The notes under the pieces: generated by a model
The model's input: the letters and a program-made list of their open reading frames with translations, nothing else
The model's database searches: none
Told to the model about the DNA's origin: nothing
Part shown: piece after piece, positions 796 through 40,817 of the stretch
How positions within the stretch are numbered: position 1 is the stretch's first letter
How the letters are laid out: each line of letters opens with the position of its first letter
Program-made: the position numbers and the translations under genes
From: Crocinitomicaceae bacterium
GTDB lineage: Bacteria > Bacteroidota > Bacteroidia > Flavobacteriales_D > Crocinitomicaceae
Reading direction: 5' to 3'
Assembly (NCBI GenBank): GCA_029252405.1
Contig: JAQXBM010000076.1
Location: 1-41,824, forward strand
Length of the DNA: 41,824 nucleotides

Positions 796-3700
796 CTAAC
801 ATTTTTTTGGAACAAAACCTTTCTTCTTATCAACCTTACCAACATGAGTTGTCTCAACCTGTTGTAGTTTATTATTGAAATCATCAAACGACATATCTTC
901 TGTAGGATAAATAGTGTGATGACCTGCTTTGTGAGGACCTCCGACGTCAGCGCCATCGGCAACCATCCCTAATCCCTTTGGTAAATCTGTGTTGTCAATC
1001 TTATGTACCTGCCCTGTTAATCCACTATCTAAATCGGTCGTTGCCGATTTTCCTTGAGGCCATACCCCGGCTTCAGGATCAACAGATTGAGCAGAAACAT
1101 TACCGTCCGTAACGGTAATATCTCCCTTCATTCTTCCATTATCTCCCATCACTCTTGGTCTTGCATTAGCAGGTCCTGAGGCGTTACCAAAAATAAAGAT
1201 ATCCGACAAACCAAAGACATCTGCCCAGCTATTGGTGTCCTTTACATATGAAAAGACATTAAAGCCTCCTCTAATTCCAATGGGGTCTCGACTAACGTAT
1301 GTCCCACTCTCAGGAGAATAATACCTAAATCTATTGTAAGCTAACTCAGTTTCAACATCGAAATACTGTCCTTGATACAAAAACGGAATAAAGTTCTCAA
1401 ATCCTGTTTCTTTTCTTGTCTCACCGTAAATGTTCAGTTGTCGACTCCAAACTTTCTTCCCTTCTTCGTCATACGCCTCAGTTGGAGTTCCCAAATGATC
1501 TGTAATGATCGAGTAGGACTTGAACCCGTGCATCTTCGCCATTGGAATAAACGTTCCATCTTCGAAGACCCATGTTGTGAGGTTTTCTGGAGTAATGATT
1601 TCTCGTTCCCCATCTTCGTTCACTTGGGTGATCGCATCGTCAATACCTGATGTCCATTCGTGGAGTGGAACATTTCCATCCCACACGAAGTGTGTTGTTT
1701 GATCTTTGTAGGTCTTTGTCAGTCTTCGACCAAGTGCATCATAGGTGAAGTCGACATGCTTTCTGTCCGGTCGAATCACCTTCTTGAGCATTCGGCCTTG
1801 TGTCCATTTGTAGCGCCACGTTTCTGCGATTGATGACTTTTCAATCAAGTTTCCAACTTCATCGTAGGTGTATGAGTACTTCTCATCTTTGAGAAGTTGT
1901 CCTGCTTTTCCGTACTTGCGGTCTTTCTTCTCCTTTGTTTTGAAAAGGTTTCCAATTTCGTCGGGGAGTTTGTAATCCCAGCTTCCATCTGAATATTGTG
2001 CCGCCGATAAGTTTCCAAACAAATCATGCTCAAAGTTCACGAGCTCGTTCTTGAGGACATCTTCGATTGATCTTAGTCGATCATTCACATCCCATTGGTA
2101 GCGTCTCTTTGATTGAATTTGCTCCTTGGCGCTCACGCTGTGTTGCACGGGACGTCCACTCTTGTCTCTTTCCCAATTGCTGGTCACACCTCCTGGAAGG
2201 CTACGTTCTATTTCTAGTCCAACAAGGTTGCGGGTGATGTCTACTTCCCATTTGTTGGTTCCTGCTTCTTTATCGTTGATTAGCTCTTCCTCTGTTTGCT
2301 TACGTGCTTGTTCCACGCTTGTGTTGAGGATCTGCCCAAATTTGTTTCTCGAGATTTTGATATCTGCTCCTAGATCACTCGTCAGAGATATTCGTTGTCC
2401 TAATCGGTTGTATTCGCTTTCAATGCGAACTCCATTCTGCGTCTCTGCGATTACTTTTCCAAGTTTATCTCGCTCAAGTGTCACTACTCCGTTTTCGTTG
2501 ACTGCCTCAATGAGTAATCCAGACTTATTGTAGGTGTAGACTTCTTGTGTTTGATCGTCGTAATGAACGATGCTCACGTTTCCGAGTAGGTCGTATGAGT
2601 AACTCACTTTCTTTCCATCTGGAGTAACCGTTTGGCTGACTTGTCCACCTGCATTTCTGGCGTACTTGCGTTTCAGTCCATCAAAACCACTCTCTTGGAT
2701 GATTTGTCCGTTTCTATCTCTATCGAATCGGTACAAGCTTTTGTGCTCGTTGGTGATTGCCTTGAGTTGATCTGCTTTGGTGTAAGCAAACTTGATCTTC
2801 GTATCGTTCTCTTCTCTTGCCTCCAGTTTTCCTGTTGCAGAGTATTCGAACTTCACTTGGTGGTGTTTGTCTTTTGCTTGGACAACATTTCCTACGCAGT
2901 CATACTTCAAGTGAACCATGTTTCCGTCCACTGTTTTCATTTGCTTCACTCGTCCGAGTTCGTCGTAATGATAATTGACTGAAGTATCTTGGTTGCTCAC
3001 TGCGTGAAGTAGCTGACCTTGTCCGTCGTATTTCCAATTGGTTACTTCACCGTTTGGAAGCGTCACTTTTTCTAGCGAGTGCTCTTTGTTGTAGGATAGA
3101 TAGGTTTCTAGTCCATTTGTATCGGTGATTTGTGTGAGCAAATCATTGGTGTAGTAATAACGCGTTGCGTCATTTGAGGGGCCGATGCGCTTTGTCAAAA
3201 AGCCATTCTCATCGTATTCCCACAACCAAAGTGCATTGGTTGCGTTCTTGGCTGCAACGAGGTTGTTGTCCTCGTAGATATAGTTCGTACTTCCTCCGTT
3301 TGGAAGTCGCTCCGATGTTTTGTTTCCGTAATCGTCGTATCCGTAATAGGTATGCTGACCGAGTTTGTCCGTGTAGCGCATCACCATTCCATTCAAGTTG
3401 TATTCCCACGATTCGCTGTTGCCCATCGCGTCAGTTACCTGGATGATTTCTCCATTGCGATGCCAATGAGTTGTTTTGGCACCCATGGCATTCGTCTCAA
3501 CGGTATTTCCTAGCTTGTATTCGAACGAGCGCAGTTGCTGTCCGTTTTTGTTAAACCAGTGTTTTAAACATTTGGGATCCTCGTCTGTGTTTTCAAACTC
3601 CCAGTGTTCCGTTGCTCCGTTTCGATCTGTTTTGAGGGTCAGCAGTCCGTTGGTGTATTCTAGCTTTTCCTCTTGACCCAAGGTATCGCGAATGATGGAC

Positions 3701-4269
3701 ATAAAGCCCTCTTCATTGTATTCGTACTCAACGAGTACTCGATCTGCCTGAACATCAGAAACGTGTGTTACCGAAATGATTCGTTGTTCACTGTCTCGTT
3801 CGATATCTAGTGTGCGATTGCTCGAATCGATGATTTTTTCCAATCGACCTGAAGCGTTGTACAAAAACAAGATCTCAAAACGGTGACGTGAAATTCTGGC
3901 AATGCGGTACGTATCTTTTGATCCTCCCACATATTTATAGTGATAAGTCAATTTCTGATCGTAATCTTCAATCAGTACTTCGTCCTCATTGTGCGCGTAT
4001 TTGATTTTTTCAGTCGCAACTACTGCTTCTTCTCCTATTTCCAAGTAGGGTAACCCCGTTTGGTTTCCATTCCCGTTCAACCATTCATATAAGCCCTCTG
4101 AGCGTTTGAATTGAAGCGTTTGATCAGCAAAAGAATGCCACGTTTTTCCCAATAAACCATTGACCTCGACTTGCGTGCGGTATTGGCGTGCCCATTCGAA
4201 TGAAATTGGACCATTGAGACGAAAATCTTCTTCCAATAATATGGATTCTCCCGTGATGAAACTGATCAT
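796..4269 (-). CDS. Rhs/YD-repeat polymorphic toxin with unknown C-terminal toxin domain
   Basis: An Rhs protein of 1157 residues. It opens with an Rhs shell start (ITGE followed by LEEDFRLNGPISFEWARQY), with no PAAR domain or signal peptide before it. Residues from about 130 to 900 are tandem YD repeats (YDDYGN, YDELGR, YDLLGN, YDALGR), which fold into a hollow shell enclosing the toxin. The Rhs core motif near residues 985-1022 includes YYSPESGTYVSRDPIG and ends DVFGLS. The roughly 135 residues after this are the variable toxin tip, with a distinctive segment around HKAGHHTIYPTEDMSFDDF. I cannot name its activity. Rhs proteins deliver toxins to neighbouring cells, often by type VI secretion, but no secretion genes are in the window. 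The gene lies just beyond the atpG terminator and is followed by a likely immunity gene. Confidence 0.9.
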   Translation of the reverse strand: MISFITGESILLEEDFRLNGPISFEWARQYRTQVEVNGLLGKTWHSFADQTLQFKRSEGLYEWLNGNGNQTGLPYLEIGEEAVVATEKIKYAHNEDEVLIEDYDQKLTYHYKYVGGSKDTYRIARISRHRFEILFLYNASGRLEKIIDSSNRTLDIERDSEQRIISVTHVSDVQADRVLVEYEYNEEGFMSIIRDTLGQEEKLEYTNGLLTLKTDRNGATEHWEFENTDEDPKCLKHWFNKNGQQLRSFEYKLGNTVETNAMGAKTTHWHRNGEIIQVTDAMGNSESWEYNLNGMVMRYTDKLGQHTYYGYDDYGNKTSERLPNGGSTNYIYEDNNLVAAKNATNALWLWEYDENGFLTKRIGPSNDATRYYYTNDLLTQITDTNGLETYLSYNKEHSLEKVTLPNGEVTNWKYDGQGQLLHAVSNQDTSVNYHYDELGRVKQMKTVDGNMVHLKYDCVGNVVQAKDKHHQVKFEYSATGKLEAREENDTKIKFAYTKADQLKAITNEHKSLYRFDRDRNGQIIQESGFDGLKRKYARNAGGQVSQTVTPDGKKVSYSYDLLGNVSIVHYDDQTQEVYTYNKSGLLIEAVNENGVVTLERDKLGKVIAETQNGVRIESEYNRLGQRISLTSDLGADIKISRNKFGQILNTSVEQARKQTEEELINDKEAGTNKWEVDITRNLVGLEIERSLPGGVTSNWERDKSGRPVQHSVSAKEQIQSKRRYQWDVNDRLRSIEDVLKNELVNFEHDLFGNLSAAQYSDGSWDYKLPDEIGNLFKTKEKKDRKYGKAGQLLKDEKYSYTYDEVGNLIEKSSIAETWRYKWTQGRMLKKVIRPDRKHVDFTYDALGRRLTKTYKDQTTHFVWDGNVPLHEWTSGIDDAITQVNEDGEREIITPENLTTWVFEDGTFIPMAKMHGFKSYSIITDHLGTPTEAYDEEGKKVWSRQLNIYGETRKETGFENFIPFLYQGQYFDVETELAYNRFRYYSPESGTYVSRDPIGIRGGFNVFSYVKDTNSWADVFGLSDIFIFGNASGPANARPRVMGDNGRMKGDITVTDGNVSAQSVDPEAGVWPQGKSATTDLDSGLTGQVHKIDNTDLPKGLGMVADGADVGGPHKAGHHTIYPTEDMSFDDFNNKLQQVETTHVGKVDKKKGFVPKKC

Positions 4270-37636: not shown

Positions 37637-37757
37637 AATTTGGCACTATTTGCCTTATTTTCTGTCAAAACGGGCGAAAAACAGCCAATTTGACGCTAAA
37701 TCACAAAAAATATGTTAAAAAACGACCCACACGTGTAATTTTTCGGGGAGTTGAGCG

Positions 37758-37805
37758 TATTACATATAACAATACGCTTGATGCACGGTTAAAAAAGCAT
37801 CAATA
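37758..37805 (+). promoter_or_regulatory. two inverted repeats upstream of sRNA unit 1
   Basis: GCGTATT...AATACGC surrounds ACATATAAC, followed directly by TTGATGC...GCATCAA around ACGGTTAAAAAA. These adjacent perfect 7-bp inverted repeats could be RNA hairpins at the 5' end of the unit 1 transcript, or operator sites. Unit 1 has no -24/-12 promoter in the position used by units 2-4. Confidence 0.5.
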
Positions 37806-37806
37806 C

Positions 37807-37882
37807 GTAGAAGTTAGTTTTCATAAGTAGTAGTAGTTTAGGTTTTGAAAGGAGAGAATGCCAGTTCTCTCCTTTCTCTTTT
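37807..37882 (+). ncRNA. sRNA unit 1 (divergent copy)
   Basis: Carries the same core as the other units from GTAGAAG to TTTAGG, but with one extra TAG triplet in the AGTAGTAG run. It ends in its own terminator: GAAAGGAGAGAA (37847-37858) pairs with TTCTCTCCTTTC (37865-37876) around loop TGCCAG, then TCTTTT. The loop differs from the CACCCG of units 2-4, and the promoter region is different. The 5' end is uncertain and may lie within the inverted repeats upstream. Confidence 0.7.
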
Positions 37883-37891
37883 CAACAACAT

Positions 37892-38071
37892 TCAGTCTTT
37901 CGGTTCTTTGTCACCTAGAAGGATCAGCTCCCAAAGTTTATCAATTACAAGTCTCCGCACTTGCTCCTTGTGTTCACCTTCCAATAGCTCTAACCTAGCC
38001 TGAAGTATCAATAGCTCACGAAGTAAACTTGTCAGTGTTGCATCTAATCTGTGTTCATGTGTTGTATTCAT
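37892..38071 (-). CDS. small helical hypothetical protein inside the sRNA cluster
   Basis: A 59-residue protein beginning MNTTHEHRLDATLTSLLREL, with a leucine-rich amphipathic helix (LLRELLILQARLELLEGEHK), followed by EQVRRLVIDKLWELILLGD. It probably forms a coiled coil. The ATG at 38071 has a good AGGAAAAG leader; the frame is open further upstream to 38119. Family not recognised. It runs opposite to the sRNA units and ends 9 bases from the unit 1 terminator. Confidence 0.5.
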   Translation of the reverse strand: MNTTHEHRLDATLTSLLRELLILQARLELLEGEHKEQVRRLVIDKLWELILLGDKEPKD

Positions 38072-38106
38072 CTTTTCCTGTTTTAGGCTGATGAAATGAA
38101 TCACAA

Positions 38107-38148
38107 TGCATCCATGCAAGACCTGCGAAGCAGTTCATACAAGTCTTG
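38107..38148. promoter_or_regulatory. palindrome and hairpin upstream of the small protein
   Basis: The palindrome TGCATCCATGCA (38107-38118) is directly followed by nested inverted repeats: CAAGAC (38117-38122) with GTCTTG (38143-38148), and CTGC-GAA-GCAG (38123-38133). It lies 36-77 bases upstream of the small protein's start and could be an operator or a structured leader. Confidence 0.4.
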
Positions 38149-38272
38149 TCAGGGATGAGAAGTGGTGAATACAATTGCCTAGAAATCAGGAAAAAGGATA
38201 ACAACACATACTAAGCGATAGAAATGCTAAAATCCGTTAAAAACCTCTTGATAGTTCATCTGTTAAATAAGT

Positions 38273-38289
38273 TTGGCACGAGGTTTGAA
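38273..38289 (+). promoter_or_regulatory. sigma-54-like promoter of sRNA unit 2
   Basis: TTGGCACGAGGTTTGAA. The -24 box TGGCACG is a perfect match to the sigma-54 consensus and the -12 box TTGAA differs from TTGCW at one base. Spacing between GG and the -12 dinucleotide is correct (10 bases). The predicted start is near 38299. Confidence 0.75.
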
Positions 38290-38298
38290 CTACACTAA

Positions 38299-38380
38299 GC
38301 AACTAAGTAGAAGTTAGTTTTCATAAGTAGTAGTTTAGGTATTAAGAGGAGAAGACACCCGTTTTCTCCTCTTATGTTTT
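38299..38380 (+). ncRNA. sRNA unit 2
   Basis: About 82 bases. The 44-base core is identical to units 3 and 4 from CAACTAAG to TTTAGGTATT. The terminator stem TAAGAGGAGAAGA (38343-38355) pairs with TTTTCTCCTCTTA (38362-38374) around CACCCG, then TGTTTTATAA. The start is predicted from the sigma-54 promoter. Confidence 0.8.
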
Positions 38381-38436
38381 ATAACAATTTGAAACGGAAG
38401 CTCAAACTTTGGAAGAACCCCCAACATATGTTAAAA

Positions 38437-38452
38437 TTAATATGCTTGCACA
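38437..38452 (+). promoter_or_regulatory. conserved 16-mer upstream of unit 3 promoter
   Basis: TTAATATGCTTGCACA, ending 15 bases before the -24 box. The identical 16-mer stands at the identical distance before unit 4. It includes the dyad TGC-TT-GCA. A possible activator or bending-protein site. Confidence 0.6.
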
Positions 38453-38466
38453 ACACTTTTAAATCT

Positions 38467-38483
38467 TTGGCACGGCATTTGAA
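38467..38483 (+). promoter_or_regulatory. sigma-54-like promoter of sRNA unit 3
   Basis: TTGGCACGGCATTTGAA: -24 TGGCACG and -12 TTGAA at correct spacing. The predicted start is near 38493. Confidence 0.75.
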
Positions 38484-38492
38484 CTATACTAA

Positions 38493-38575
38493 GCAACTAA
38501 GTAGAAGTTAGTTTTCATAAGTAGTAGTTTAGGTATTGAAAGGAGAAGACACCCGTCTTCTCCTTTCATGTTTTA
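38493..38575 (+). ncRNA. sRNA unit 3
   Basis: Same core as units 2 and 4. The terminator stem is a perfect 13-bp match: TGAAAGGAGAAGA (38537-38549) with TCTTCTCCTTTCA (38556-38568), loop CACCCG, then TGTTTTATAA. Compared with units 2 and 4, stem substitutions occur on both arms and preserve pairing. Confidence 0.8.
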
Positions 38576-38641
38576 TAAACGAACTCATCGAAGAAGCAAC
38601 CATTTCCCTTGATAGTGCGTTAAATCACTAAAGACATTCAT

Positions 38642-38744
38642 GTAGAAGTGAGTCTAATTAACTTTCGCTTTGGTTATGCGAAAGAATAAGTAGAGTTAAA
38701 AAATACTCGGGGCCCAAGTTATTATTTGCGCCCCTTGTTTTTTA
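38642..38744 (+). ncRNA. sRNA unit 5, variant with an inserted hairpin
   Basis: Begins GTAGAAGTGAGT, close to the core start GTAGAAGTTAGT, and later resumes with AATAAGTAG. Between these lies an added hairpin, CTTTCGC (38662-38668) with GCGAAAG (38678-38684). It ends with GGGGC (38709-38713) and GCCCC (38730-38734) followed by TTGTTTTTTAT, a rho-independent terminator of different sequence. No -24/-12 promoter is seen upstream; CTTGATAGTGCGTTAAAT at 38609-38626 partly resembles sequence upstream of units 1 and 2. Confidence 0.6.
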
Positions 38745-38769
38745 TAAAACCCCATACTTTTAGCGTTTT

Positions 38770-38785
38770 TTAATATGCTTGCACA
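38770..38785 (+). promoter_or_regulatory. conserved 16-mer upstream of unit 4 promoter
   Basis: A second exact copy of TTAATATGCTTGCACA, again ending 15 bases before the -24 box. The sequence between the two elements differs from that of unit 3, so only the site and distance are kept. Confidence 0.6.
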
Positions 38786-38799
38786 GTATTAAGTTGTTT

Positions 38800-38816
38800 T
38801 TGGCACGACATTTGAA
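38800..38816 (+). promoter_or_regulatory. sigma-54-like promoter of sRNA unit 4
   Basis: TTGGCACGACATTTGAA: -24 TGGCACG and -12 TTGAA at correct spacing. The core GTAG lies 19 bases after the -12 base, the same as in units 2 and 3. Confidence 0.75.
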
Positions 38817-38825
38817 CTACACTGT

Positions 38826-38908
38826 ACAACTAAGTAGAAGTTAGTTTTCATAAGTAGTAGTTTAGGTATTGAGAGGAGAAGACACCCGTTTTCTCCTCTC
38901 ATGTTTTA
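38826..38908 (+). ncRNA. sRNA unit 4
   Basis: Same 44-base core. The terminator stem TGAGAGGAGAAGA (38870-38882) pairs with TTTTCTCCTCTCA (38889-38901), loop CACCCG, then TGTTTT. Its first transcribed bases (GTACAACTAAG) differ from units 2 and 3 (AGCAACTAAG), so the extreme 5' end is not conserved while the core is. Confidence 0.8.
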
Positions 38909-38978
38909 AAAACATTCCTCTTGACTGTCTACATCGCACTTTTCGCCAATGTTTTCAGGCTTCCTCAATCTTTTCCTG

Positions 38979-38986
38979 TAACTTTG
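38979..38986 (+). promoter_or_regulatory. -7 element of the lepA promoter
   Basis: TAACTTTG matches TAnnTTTG, 34 bases before the lepA start. The -33 region has only a poor match (TTTC 22 bases upstream). Confidence 0.5.
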
Positions 38987-39020: not shown

Positions 39021-40817
39021 ATGGAACATATTCGAAATTTCTGCATCATCGCTCACATTGACCATGGGAAGAGTACGTTAGCCGACCGTTTGCTTCAAAC
39101 GACTGGAACCATCTCTGATCGTGAAATGCAATCTCAAGCCCTTGATGATATGGAACTTGAGCGCGAACGCGGAATTACCATTAAGAGTCATGCGATTCAA
39201 ATGGACTACGAACGCGATGGTTTGGCATATACGCTCAACCTAATCGACACTCCAGGTCACGTAGATTTCTCATACGAAGTTTCACGATCCATTGCAGCCT
39301 GTGAAGGAGCTTTGCTGATTGTAGATGCTTCTCAAGGAATTGAAGCTCAAACAATTTCGAATCTTTATTTAGCATTAGAGCACGACTTGGAAATCATTCC
39401 AATTCTCAATAAAATGGATTTGCCTGGAGCGATGCCTGAGGAAGTTACGGATCAAATTGTTGACTTAATCGGTTGTGATCCAGCTGACGTTATTCCCGCT
39501 TCTGGTAAAACTGGATTGGGTGTTGACGATATACTCAAGGCGGTTATCGAACGTATTCCAGCTCCAAAAGGAGATCCAAATGCGCCTTTGCAAGCCATGA
39601 TCTTCGATTCGGTATTTAATCCGTTCCGAGGAATTATTGCTTACTACCGAGTCTTGAATGGAAAAATCTCAAAAGGAGAAAAAATCCGATTCTTGAATAC
39701 CGGCAAAGATTACAACGCAGAGGAGGTTGGGATTCTGAAGATGTCAATTAGTCCTAAAAAGGAAGTTTTGACAGGTGATGTAGGTTATATCATCTCAGGA
39801 ATCAAAAAAGCTGCAGAGGTAAAAGTTGGAGATACGATTACGAGTCATGCAAATCCTTGTGAAGTTGCTGTAAAAGGATTCGAGGACGTAAAACCAATGG
39901 TCTTTGCTGGAATTTACCCAGTTGATACTGAGGATTACGAAGAGTTGCGTTACTCTATGGAGAAATTGCAATTGAATGATTCATCGTTGGTTTTTGAACC
40001 AGAATCGTCCGCCGCACTTGGTTTCGGATTCCGTTGTGGTTTCTTGGGAATGTTGCACATGGAGATTATCCAAGAGCGTTTGGAGCGCGAGTTCAACATG
40101 ACTGTGATTACAACCGTTCCTAACGTATCGTACAAAGCATTCTTATCGAAGACTCCTGAAGATGAGCTGATCGTAAACAACCCATCTGAGTTACCCGATC
40201 CTTCTAAAATGGATTTCATTGAAGAGCCATACATCAAGGCTTCAGTCATAACAAAATCAGAATACGTAGGTCAAATTATGACTTTGTGTATTGAGAAACG
40301 TGGTGAGTTGAAAAATCAAGTATACTTGACACAAGATCGTGTTGAGATCACTTTTGAAATGCCTTTGGGTGAAATCGTCTTTGATTTCTACGATCGCCTG
40401 AAAACGGTGTCTCGCGGATATGCTTCATTTGATTATCACCCAATCGGATACAAGCGTTCTGATCTGATCAAACTCGATCTTCTTTTGAATACGGAACAAG
40501 TGGATGCTCTATCCGCATTGGTTCACAGAAGTAATGCGTTTGAGCTCGGAAAGAAAATCTGTTTGAAGCTAAAAGAACTGATCCCAAGACAGCAGTTCGA
40601 GATTCCAATTCAAGCGGCTATTGGCGCGAAGATTATAGCTCGTGAAACGATCAAGGCACTTCGTAAGGATGTGACTGCAAAATGTTACGGTGGTGATATT
40701 TCACGTAAACGTAAACTCCTTGAAAAGCAAAAAGCCGGTAAGAAGCGAATGCGTCAAGTAGGTCGTGTAGAGATTCCTCAAGAAGCCTTCTTGGCCGTTT
40801 TGAAGTTGAATGACTGA
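39021..40817 (+). CDS. lepA: elongation factor 4 (LepA)
   Basis: A ribosome-dependent GTPase that back-translocates or remodels stalled ribosomes. 598 residues, normal length. The GTPase motifs are [10 protein letters not shown] (residues 11-20), the switch region [21 protein letters not shown] and NKMDLPGA. The LepA-specific C-terminal domain ends with [20 protein letters not shown] and [19 protein letters not shown]. The stop overlaps the start of the DUF1826 gene by one base (TGATG), implying coupled translation. Confidence 0.98.

Follow-up and report, generated by a model that had tools for sequence, protein, structure and literature searches.

The Qrr sRNAs of Vibrio occur as several sigma-54-driven copies, the -24/-12 element being the well-established sigma-54 promoter. 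CsrB and RsmZ follow another logic, sequestering CsrA, an autoregulated protein, through a repeated GGA motif. Within Bacteroidota, Flavo-1 is a known RNA motif. The usual sRNA partners Hfq, ProQ and CsrA are reportedly missing from this phylum (PMC12119571). In Bacteroides thetaiotaomicron, the sRNAs FopS and GibS work with the RRM protein RbpB, which counteracts FopS at start regions (PMC11697453) and binds GUAGGAUA, not UCCUGUGC (PMC12119571, citing Adams et al. 2021). The RRMs of Musashi-1 recognise (G/A)U1-3AGU and UAG (PMC12342889), and this protein has been engineered to repress translation in E. coli (PMC10942595).

Here, an apparently undescribed family of small-RNA genes is found in a Crocinitomicaceae bacterium, within a 41,824-nucleotide stretch of DNA (the window) from a genome of 4.28 Mb in 102 contigs (G000). 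A 118-nt direct repeat occurs there three times (88-92% identity to the reference copy), together with a fourth, shorter copy. An earlier note had read the region as a tandem family of five related sRNA genes, three of them of the same build. That observation is largely right and partly confirmed: four units (u1, u2, u3 and u5) form one family, and the count was off by one, u4 falling outside. The three units of identical build are u2 (38296-38382), u3 (38490-38576) and u5 (38823-38909), all on the plus strand. They share a 44-base core, CAACTAAGTAGAAGTTAGTTTTCATAAGTAGTAGTTTAGGTATT, that is identical at 38300, 38494 and 38827, is preceded by TGGCAC-N5-TTGAA at 38274, 38468 and 38801, and is followed by a 14-bp hairpin whose four-base loop lies inside ACACCCGU. 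The corresponding -24/-12 (sigma-54-type) promoters, recognised by their sequence pattern, span 38274-38289 (TGGCACGAGGTTTGAA), 38468-38483 and 38801-38816 on the plus strand. With u2 as the query, BLAST against its own genome returned the other copies at E values of 1e-42, 2e-41 and 2e-12, so the likeness of these copies lies beyond chance; the search gave four copies in all, and no others.

The fourth member, u1 (37804-37885, plus strand), had rightly been counted as a relative. Its core, the GTAGTAGTAG form, is that of u2, u3 and u5 with one additional GTA; its upstream region differs from theirs and has no -24/-12 pattern. Ahead of it lies a dyad, CGTATTACATATAACAATAC (37756-37775, plus strand), a possible activator site judging by its position and by its copies in relatives: it is unchanged before the first copies in two related loci (L005 and L108), carries one change in two others (L006 and L007), and appears in degenerate form ahead of a number of other units. 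Between the dyad and the u1 core, an inverted repeat, TTGATGC...GCATCAA (37778-37803, plus strand), could form a putative 5' hairpin and has a by-eye likeness in L005 and L007. A 59-codon open frame (MNTTHEHRLDATLTSLLRELL...) runs on the minus strand between u1 and u2 (37892-38071).

The unit u4 (38636-38745, plus strand) had been proposed as a further member, a proposal that finds no support here. Its likeness to the family consists of GTAGAAGT alone, near which it starts, the covariance model described below does not report it, and BLAST against loci L001-L033 matched own-genome loci alone, with nothing in the relatives' L005-L033. Judged from its good predicted fold (z -4.1), u4 may be another RNA, a separate structured segment outside the demonstrated family.

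Class A, as the family is termed here, is defined by the core plus a covarying terminator, both of which are found in u1, u2, u3 and u5. A covariance model (R1) built from 47 aligned units scores these four at 95-98 bits, all four being among its source units: 98.4 bits (E 4e-18) for u1 at 37805-37885, 95.3 bits for u2 at 38305-38382, 98.4 bits for u3 at 38499-38576 and 96.0 bits for u5 at 38832-38909. Their predicted folds have z scores of -3.3, -5.6, -6.3 and -4.5, respectively. Across the 47 units the arm is near-invariant and the hairpin is altered by compensation, which bears out the claim that the core is more conserved than the stems. Pairing is kept in 94.8% of hairpin cells, against 45-62% in slid controls; two-sided changes occur in 12 of the 14 hairpin pairs; and the covariation score is 0.568, compared with 0.287 for shuffled and at most 0.232 for slid alignments. 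Rfam scans of the window and 13 related loci gave no family at gathering score, and the list for the region at E<=10 holds 22 matches, all far below their own gathering scores, with Qrr, Flavo-1 and CsrB/RsmZ not among them. The earlier note had recognised no known family, had seen no sequence likeness to Qrr and had named Flavo-1 as a motif to compare; on all these points its view stands. Among the matches listed, openly licensed PMC papers contain no description of the family, and none joins Crocinitomicaceae with small RNA.

Several copies under sigma-54-type promoters had been claimed for the window, and the same arrangement extends to the genus. The pattern TGGYAY-N4/5-TTGN precedes 38 of 45 genus units from 27 loci (those with enough upstream sequence, leaving out one unit from genus g3 and two from genome G228), compared with a rate of 0.07% in mononucleotide shuffles, and in 31 genus units it stands exactly 44 nt before the core element TTTTCATA. 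Outside the genus it is found in 5 of 31 units from other genera. The seven genus units that lack it include u1 and the first copies of L005, L006 and L007; by eye, the promoter of u1, like that of the class B RNAs described below, is sigma-A-like. In the window's genome RpoN is matched once and Sigma54_activat nine times, with three of the nine matches strong. From the promoters, the single RpoN and the three activator genes, we infer that most genus copies are switched on by sigma-54 together with an activator. One strong sigma-54 response-regulator activator (L035, G000:C28) lies beside a gene that is H-NOX-like by eye, a possible inducer.

The layout recurs in other genomes of the genus and family, as would be expected of functional RNAs in the terms of the earlier note. 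Matches to R1 were found at E<=0.1 in 150 of 200 family genomes, representing 20 of 24 genera, and at E<=1e-5 in 112 of the 200. A search of 60 genomes gave matches in 55 at E<=1, all those below E 1e-10 lying within the same genus, and an order-wide draw gave matches in 94 of 299 genomes, 82 of these in the same family. Named isolates with the RNA include Fluviicola chungangensis, Taishania pollutisoli, Brumimicrobium aurantiacum and Lishizhenia tianjinensis. No relatives were found by way of the neighbouring 171-aa protein, and viral contigs held no exact match to the 20-nt core pattern. The core is also matched exactly in records titled Persicobacter, Saccharibacteria and Marinifilaceae, at scores of 23-27 bits; these matches were set aside as chance-like. 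Three Flavobacteriaceae matches of 39-41 bits were rejected as RNAs, since they lie on the reverse strand of a gene start and lack the hairpin; for that reason scores near 40 bits, such as those of genome G060 and genus g41, are no proof of an RNA. Genome G228 is placed in another family; its two strong copies, on a contig of 5.3 kb with a lepA that is 93% identical, are probably contamination.

The class A core consists of successive UAG motifs placed around UUUUCAUAAGUAGUAG and reads in full GUAGAAGUUAGUUUUCAUAAGUAGUAGUAGUUUAGGU. With at most one change, TTTCATAAGTAGTAG is present in 18 of the 19 family loci fetched for other-genus model matches, the exception being L100 (genus g24), and several of the indels that distinguish relatives consist of added GTA or TTAGG units. 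In 19 arms, with limits set by hand, there are 3 to 8 UAGs per arm. This count exceeds that of mononucleotide shuffles in 16 arms and that of dinucleotide shuffles in only 3 (p<=0.05), so an excess of UAG beyond dinucleotide composition is unsupported.

A second kind of RNA came to light through a weak model match (L349) that is not near lepA, and two further classes, B and C, are present in the same genome, with UUAGG/UAG repeats and terminator hairpins in common. Class B is a constitutive-looking UUAGG-repeat RNA, whose own-genome copy lies on contig C90 (L401; G000:C90:73994-74007, minus strand; fold z -5.4). A TATATTTG-type box and an invariant CTTTTTCAGTGAATAGTGGTTAGGTTAGGTTA mark 21 distinct copies, of which 19 come from genus genomes (the window's own copy and 18 more), one from a UBA5422 MAG and one from Taishania pollutisoli. 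Exact GGTTAGGTTAGGTT is present in 19 of the 28 genus genomes and in none of 17 out-of-family genomes, and no genome searched has it outside the family; only this exact form is telling, because with up to one mismatch there are 54 sites in the genus against 102 for the reversed control, making it the rarer of the two. Class C is represented in the window's genome by two tandem copies on contig C101 (G000:C101:109644-109865, equivalent to L400:3145-3366; fold z -3.1 and -4.2), upstream of a short-chain fatty acid transporter gene, and by three copies in genome G008 (L402). TTTGGCAC precedes 4 of these 5 copies, with a -12 box unlike that of class A. In the predicted fold of class C the UAG arm is wholly unpaired and is followed by two hairpins, the array making up the whole of the unpaired arm.

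The motif recurs in front of a protein gene. The window's genome has one RRM_1 gene, whose leader ends in TAATAGTTAGGTTAG-ATG. A survey of 80 family genomes gave 101 RRM matches: 49 of class N (IFIANLD-like), 44 of class K (IFVAKLD-like), seven of other kinds and one whose start could not be read, these last eight being left out of the leader counts. Of the 49 class N genes, 30 carry TTAG within 15 nt ahead of the ATG; among the 44 class K genes the number is 1, and among 549 ORF starts it is 35. TTAGGT lies within 25 nt in 17 of 49, 0 of 44 and 9 of 549, eight of these nine being class N. The ORF starts (at least 150 aa, from fetched loci, nearly all of the family) include class N genes of that length. 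The motif before the class N start codon has the same sense as in the RNAs. In 11 of 14 genera (all but g3, g34 and g36) one or more class N genes have TTAG within these 15 nt, and 19 of the 49 class N leaders are without it. Among out-of-family RRM leaders (15 genes, 14 readable), TTAG is within 15 nt in 1 of 14, and none has TTAGG within 50 nt. In G055, a relative outside the family, seven RRM matches lie close together on two contigs (L355, L363 and L365-L369).

The RNA and the class N protein also co-occur. At E<=1e-4, 48 of the 80 genomes have both, five have the RNA only, one has class N only and 26 have neither; the RNA-only five are four incomplete genomes and the weakly matching G060. 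On a lepA tree the class N label requires four changes and clusters in a single clade (g2, g41 and the incomplete g40 are without it), so the independent events of co-occurrence are few. Related UAG-rich RNAs occur in five g41 genomes, and five other g41 genomes, typed for RRM genes, have class K only. The g41 loci L345-L348 hold diverged relatives, TTTTCATATTTAGTAGTTTAGGTTAG plus a hairpin. Taken together, the UAG motif shared with the leader of the RRM gene suggests that the RNAs and the RRM protein control each other. A protein partner had not been considered in the earlier note, and it is the UAG repeats common to the two other RNA classes and the RRM leader that bring one into view.

The reading preferred here, to which we give slightly less than an even chance, is that of FopS-like RNAs, mostly driven by sigma-54, which bind an autoregulated RRM protein, compete with it and may also contain a seed against start codons. 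The units would encode trans-acting small RNAs about 85 nt long. Their single-stranded 5' arm, with its row of UAG motifs, would bind the class N RRM protein of the same genome, and this protein would also bind UUAGG/UUAG just before its own start codon and thereby repress itself. The conserved UUUUCAUA at the centre of the class A arm complements UAUGAAAA start regions, and it might pair with mRNAs that start in this way, often those for secreted proteins. Bursts of RNA would then titrate the RRM protein, and the protein would keep the RNA off start codons, as with RbpB and FopS in Bacteroides. A wider formulation, which we put forward with rather more doubt than confidence, is a natural bacterial counterpart of Musashi-type control, in which sigma-54-induced UAG-array RNAs capture an autoregulated RRM protein and three RNA classes of one genome (lepA-linked, constitutive-looking and transporter-linked) feed the same protein, a CsrA/CsrB logic with another fold and motif.

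Whether the arm also pairs with mRNA separates the preferred reading from a pure protein sponge, in which the RNAs merely sequester the class N protein through the UAG array. The sponge accounts for UAG/UUAGG repeats of the same sense in three RNA classes and the RRM leader, for a class C arm that holds little besides the array, and for the indels that add GTA or TTAGG units. It has no need, however, of the spacer UUUUCAUAA (UUUCAUAA in some), which is as constant as the UAG motifs themselves in 18 of the 19 other-genus family loci; the constancy of this spacer, changed to UUUUCAUAUU in four g41 loci, therefore counts against it. Nor does it call for the fit between core and start regions. Against 486 start regions the core reaches a mean duplex energy of -9.41, compared with -8.67 for shuffled cores; none of 60 shuffles is as low, either in the mean or at the 5th percentile, at the 1st percentile 7 of 60 do as well, and at 209 arbitrary ATGs the core is no different from its shuffles. 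We regard the sponge as unlikely. The energies are also evidence for an ordinary antisense sRNA, whose core would pair with mRNA starts (UAUGAAAA or CUACUUAUGAAAAC-like), often of secreted proteins, the motif in the RRM leader being unrelated. That the core is kept for mRNA pairing had been the interpretation of the earlier note, which is partly supported: predicted binding to start regions is somewhat stronger for the core than for its shuffles, but near-complements of the core show no excess. A search of 21 genus genomes with the 17-nt core complement and two mismatches gave 26 sites outside RNA genes against 45 for the reversed pattern, a result that the sponge would lead one to expect and on which a fixed long antisense target is rejected. 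Of 20 sites fetched, hand-chosen from the 26 with a bias toward those keeping the ATG, 9 lie at ORF starts (>=80 aa), compared with 46 of 185 TTATGAAAA sites (Fisher p 0.065). All nine have signal-peptide-like starts by eye; a T9SS sorting domain was recognised in one of the genes, and the other eight, truncated where the loci end, match nothing in NCBIfam. In three Flavobacteriaceae (L220, L231 and L232; L232:3399-3409), an exact 29-nt complement of the core spans the start codon of a gene whose product has a T9SS-type C-terminus (TIGR04131 below cut-off in the one tested), yet these three show no further exact match to the 20-nt core pattern. Pairing alone also leaves classes B and C and the RRM leader unexplained. 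The antisense reading is improbable.

A different kind of alternative would make of the copies a leader or attenuator array belonging to lepA, in place of free RNAs. The gene (39021-40817, plus strand; Pfam LepA_C), here taken as context outside the RNAs, is what usually follows the RNAs in the genus: 23 of the 27 genus loci taken from other genomes have it downstream in the same orientation, and of the four that do not, two (L022 and L026) lie less than 1 kb from the contig end on that side. Each copy nevertheless ends in its own predicted terminator, a TAACTTTG box that is promoter-like by eye follows the last copy at 38979, and in the family at large the exact core motif lies within 800 nt upstream of lepA in only 4 of 24 genomes (g1, g26, g27 and g37; 23 genera read, with g36 giving none). 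The own terminators and the rarity of the core upstream of lepA disfavour this reading, which we consider very improbable.

Among described systems, the preferred reading stands closest to FopS/GibS and RbpB (PMC11697453). There as here, the sRNAs are multicopy paralogues with a single-stranded 5' arm that holds a conserved segment and is followed by a terminator hairpin, FopS being likened by description only. The RRM partner, pairing at start regions and a protein that counteracts the RNA, features described for Bacteroides, are here candidates, the partner being suggested by motif sharing and co-occurrence. FopS copies have sigma-ABfr promoters, and most genus copies here have the -24/-12 pattern instead; FopS is conserved in Bacteroidaceae; the present copies are often tandem and are UAG-rich, with their motif in an RRM gene leader. 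GUAG is absent from the text of PMC11697453, which counts against the preferred reading. The Musashi-1 site (G/A)U1-3AGU (PMC12342889) is fitted by the class A core; in place of Musashi-1 there would be a bacterial single-RRM protein.

Qrr resembles the present family in its several copies with a sigma-54 promoter, recognised here by sequence, and differs from it in phylum and in the lack of an Rfam Qrr match for the window RNAs. With CsrB/RsmZ and CsrA the likeness would lie in a repeated protein-binding motif, a motif near start codons and an autoregulated protein, and the difference in UAG and an RRM in place of GGA and CsrA, on short arms of 3 to 8 motifs. Flavo-1 is likewise a Bacteroidota motif, and the window RNAs have no match to it in Rfam scans. 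For the question of how Bacteroidota sRNAs work, the family offers an RRM-RNA pair outside Bacteroides that is concrete and open to experiment, together with a candidate motif (UAG/UUAGG), a candidate autoregulation, a candidate inducer (sigma-54) and named isolates. Elsewhere in the window, a long YD-repeat protein gene, Rhs-like by eye, occupies 796-4269 on the minus strand.
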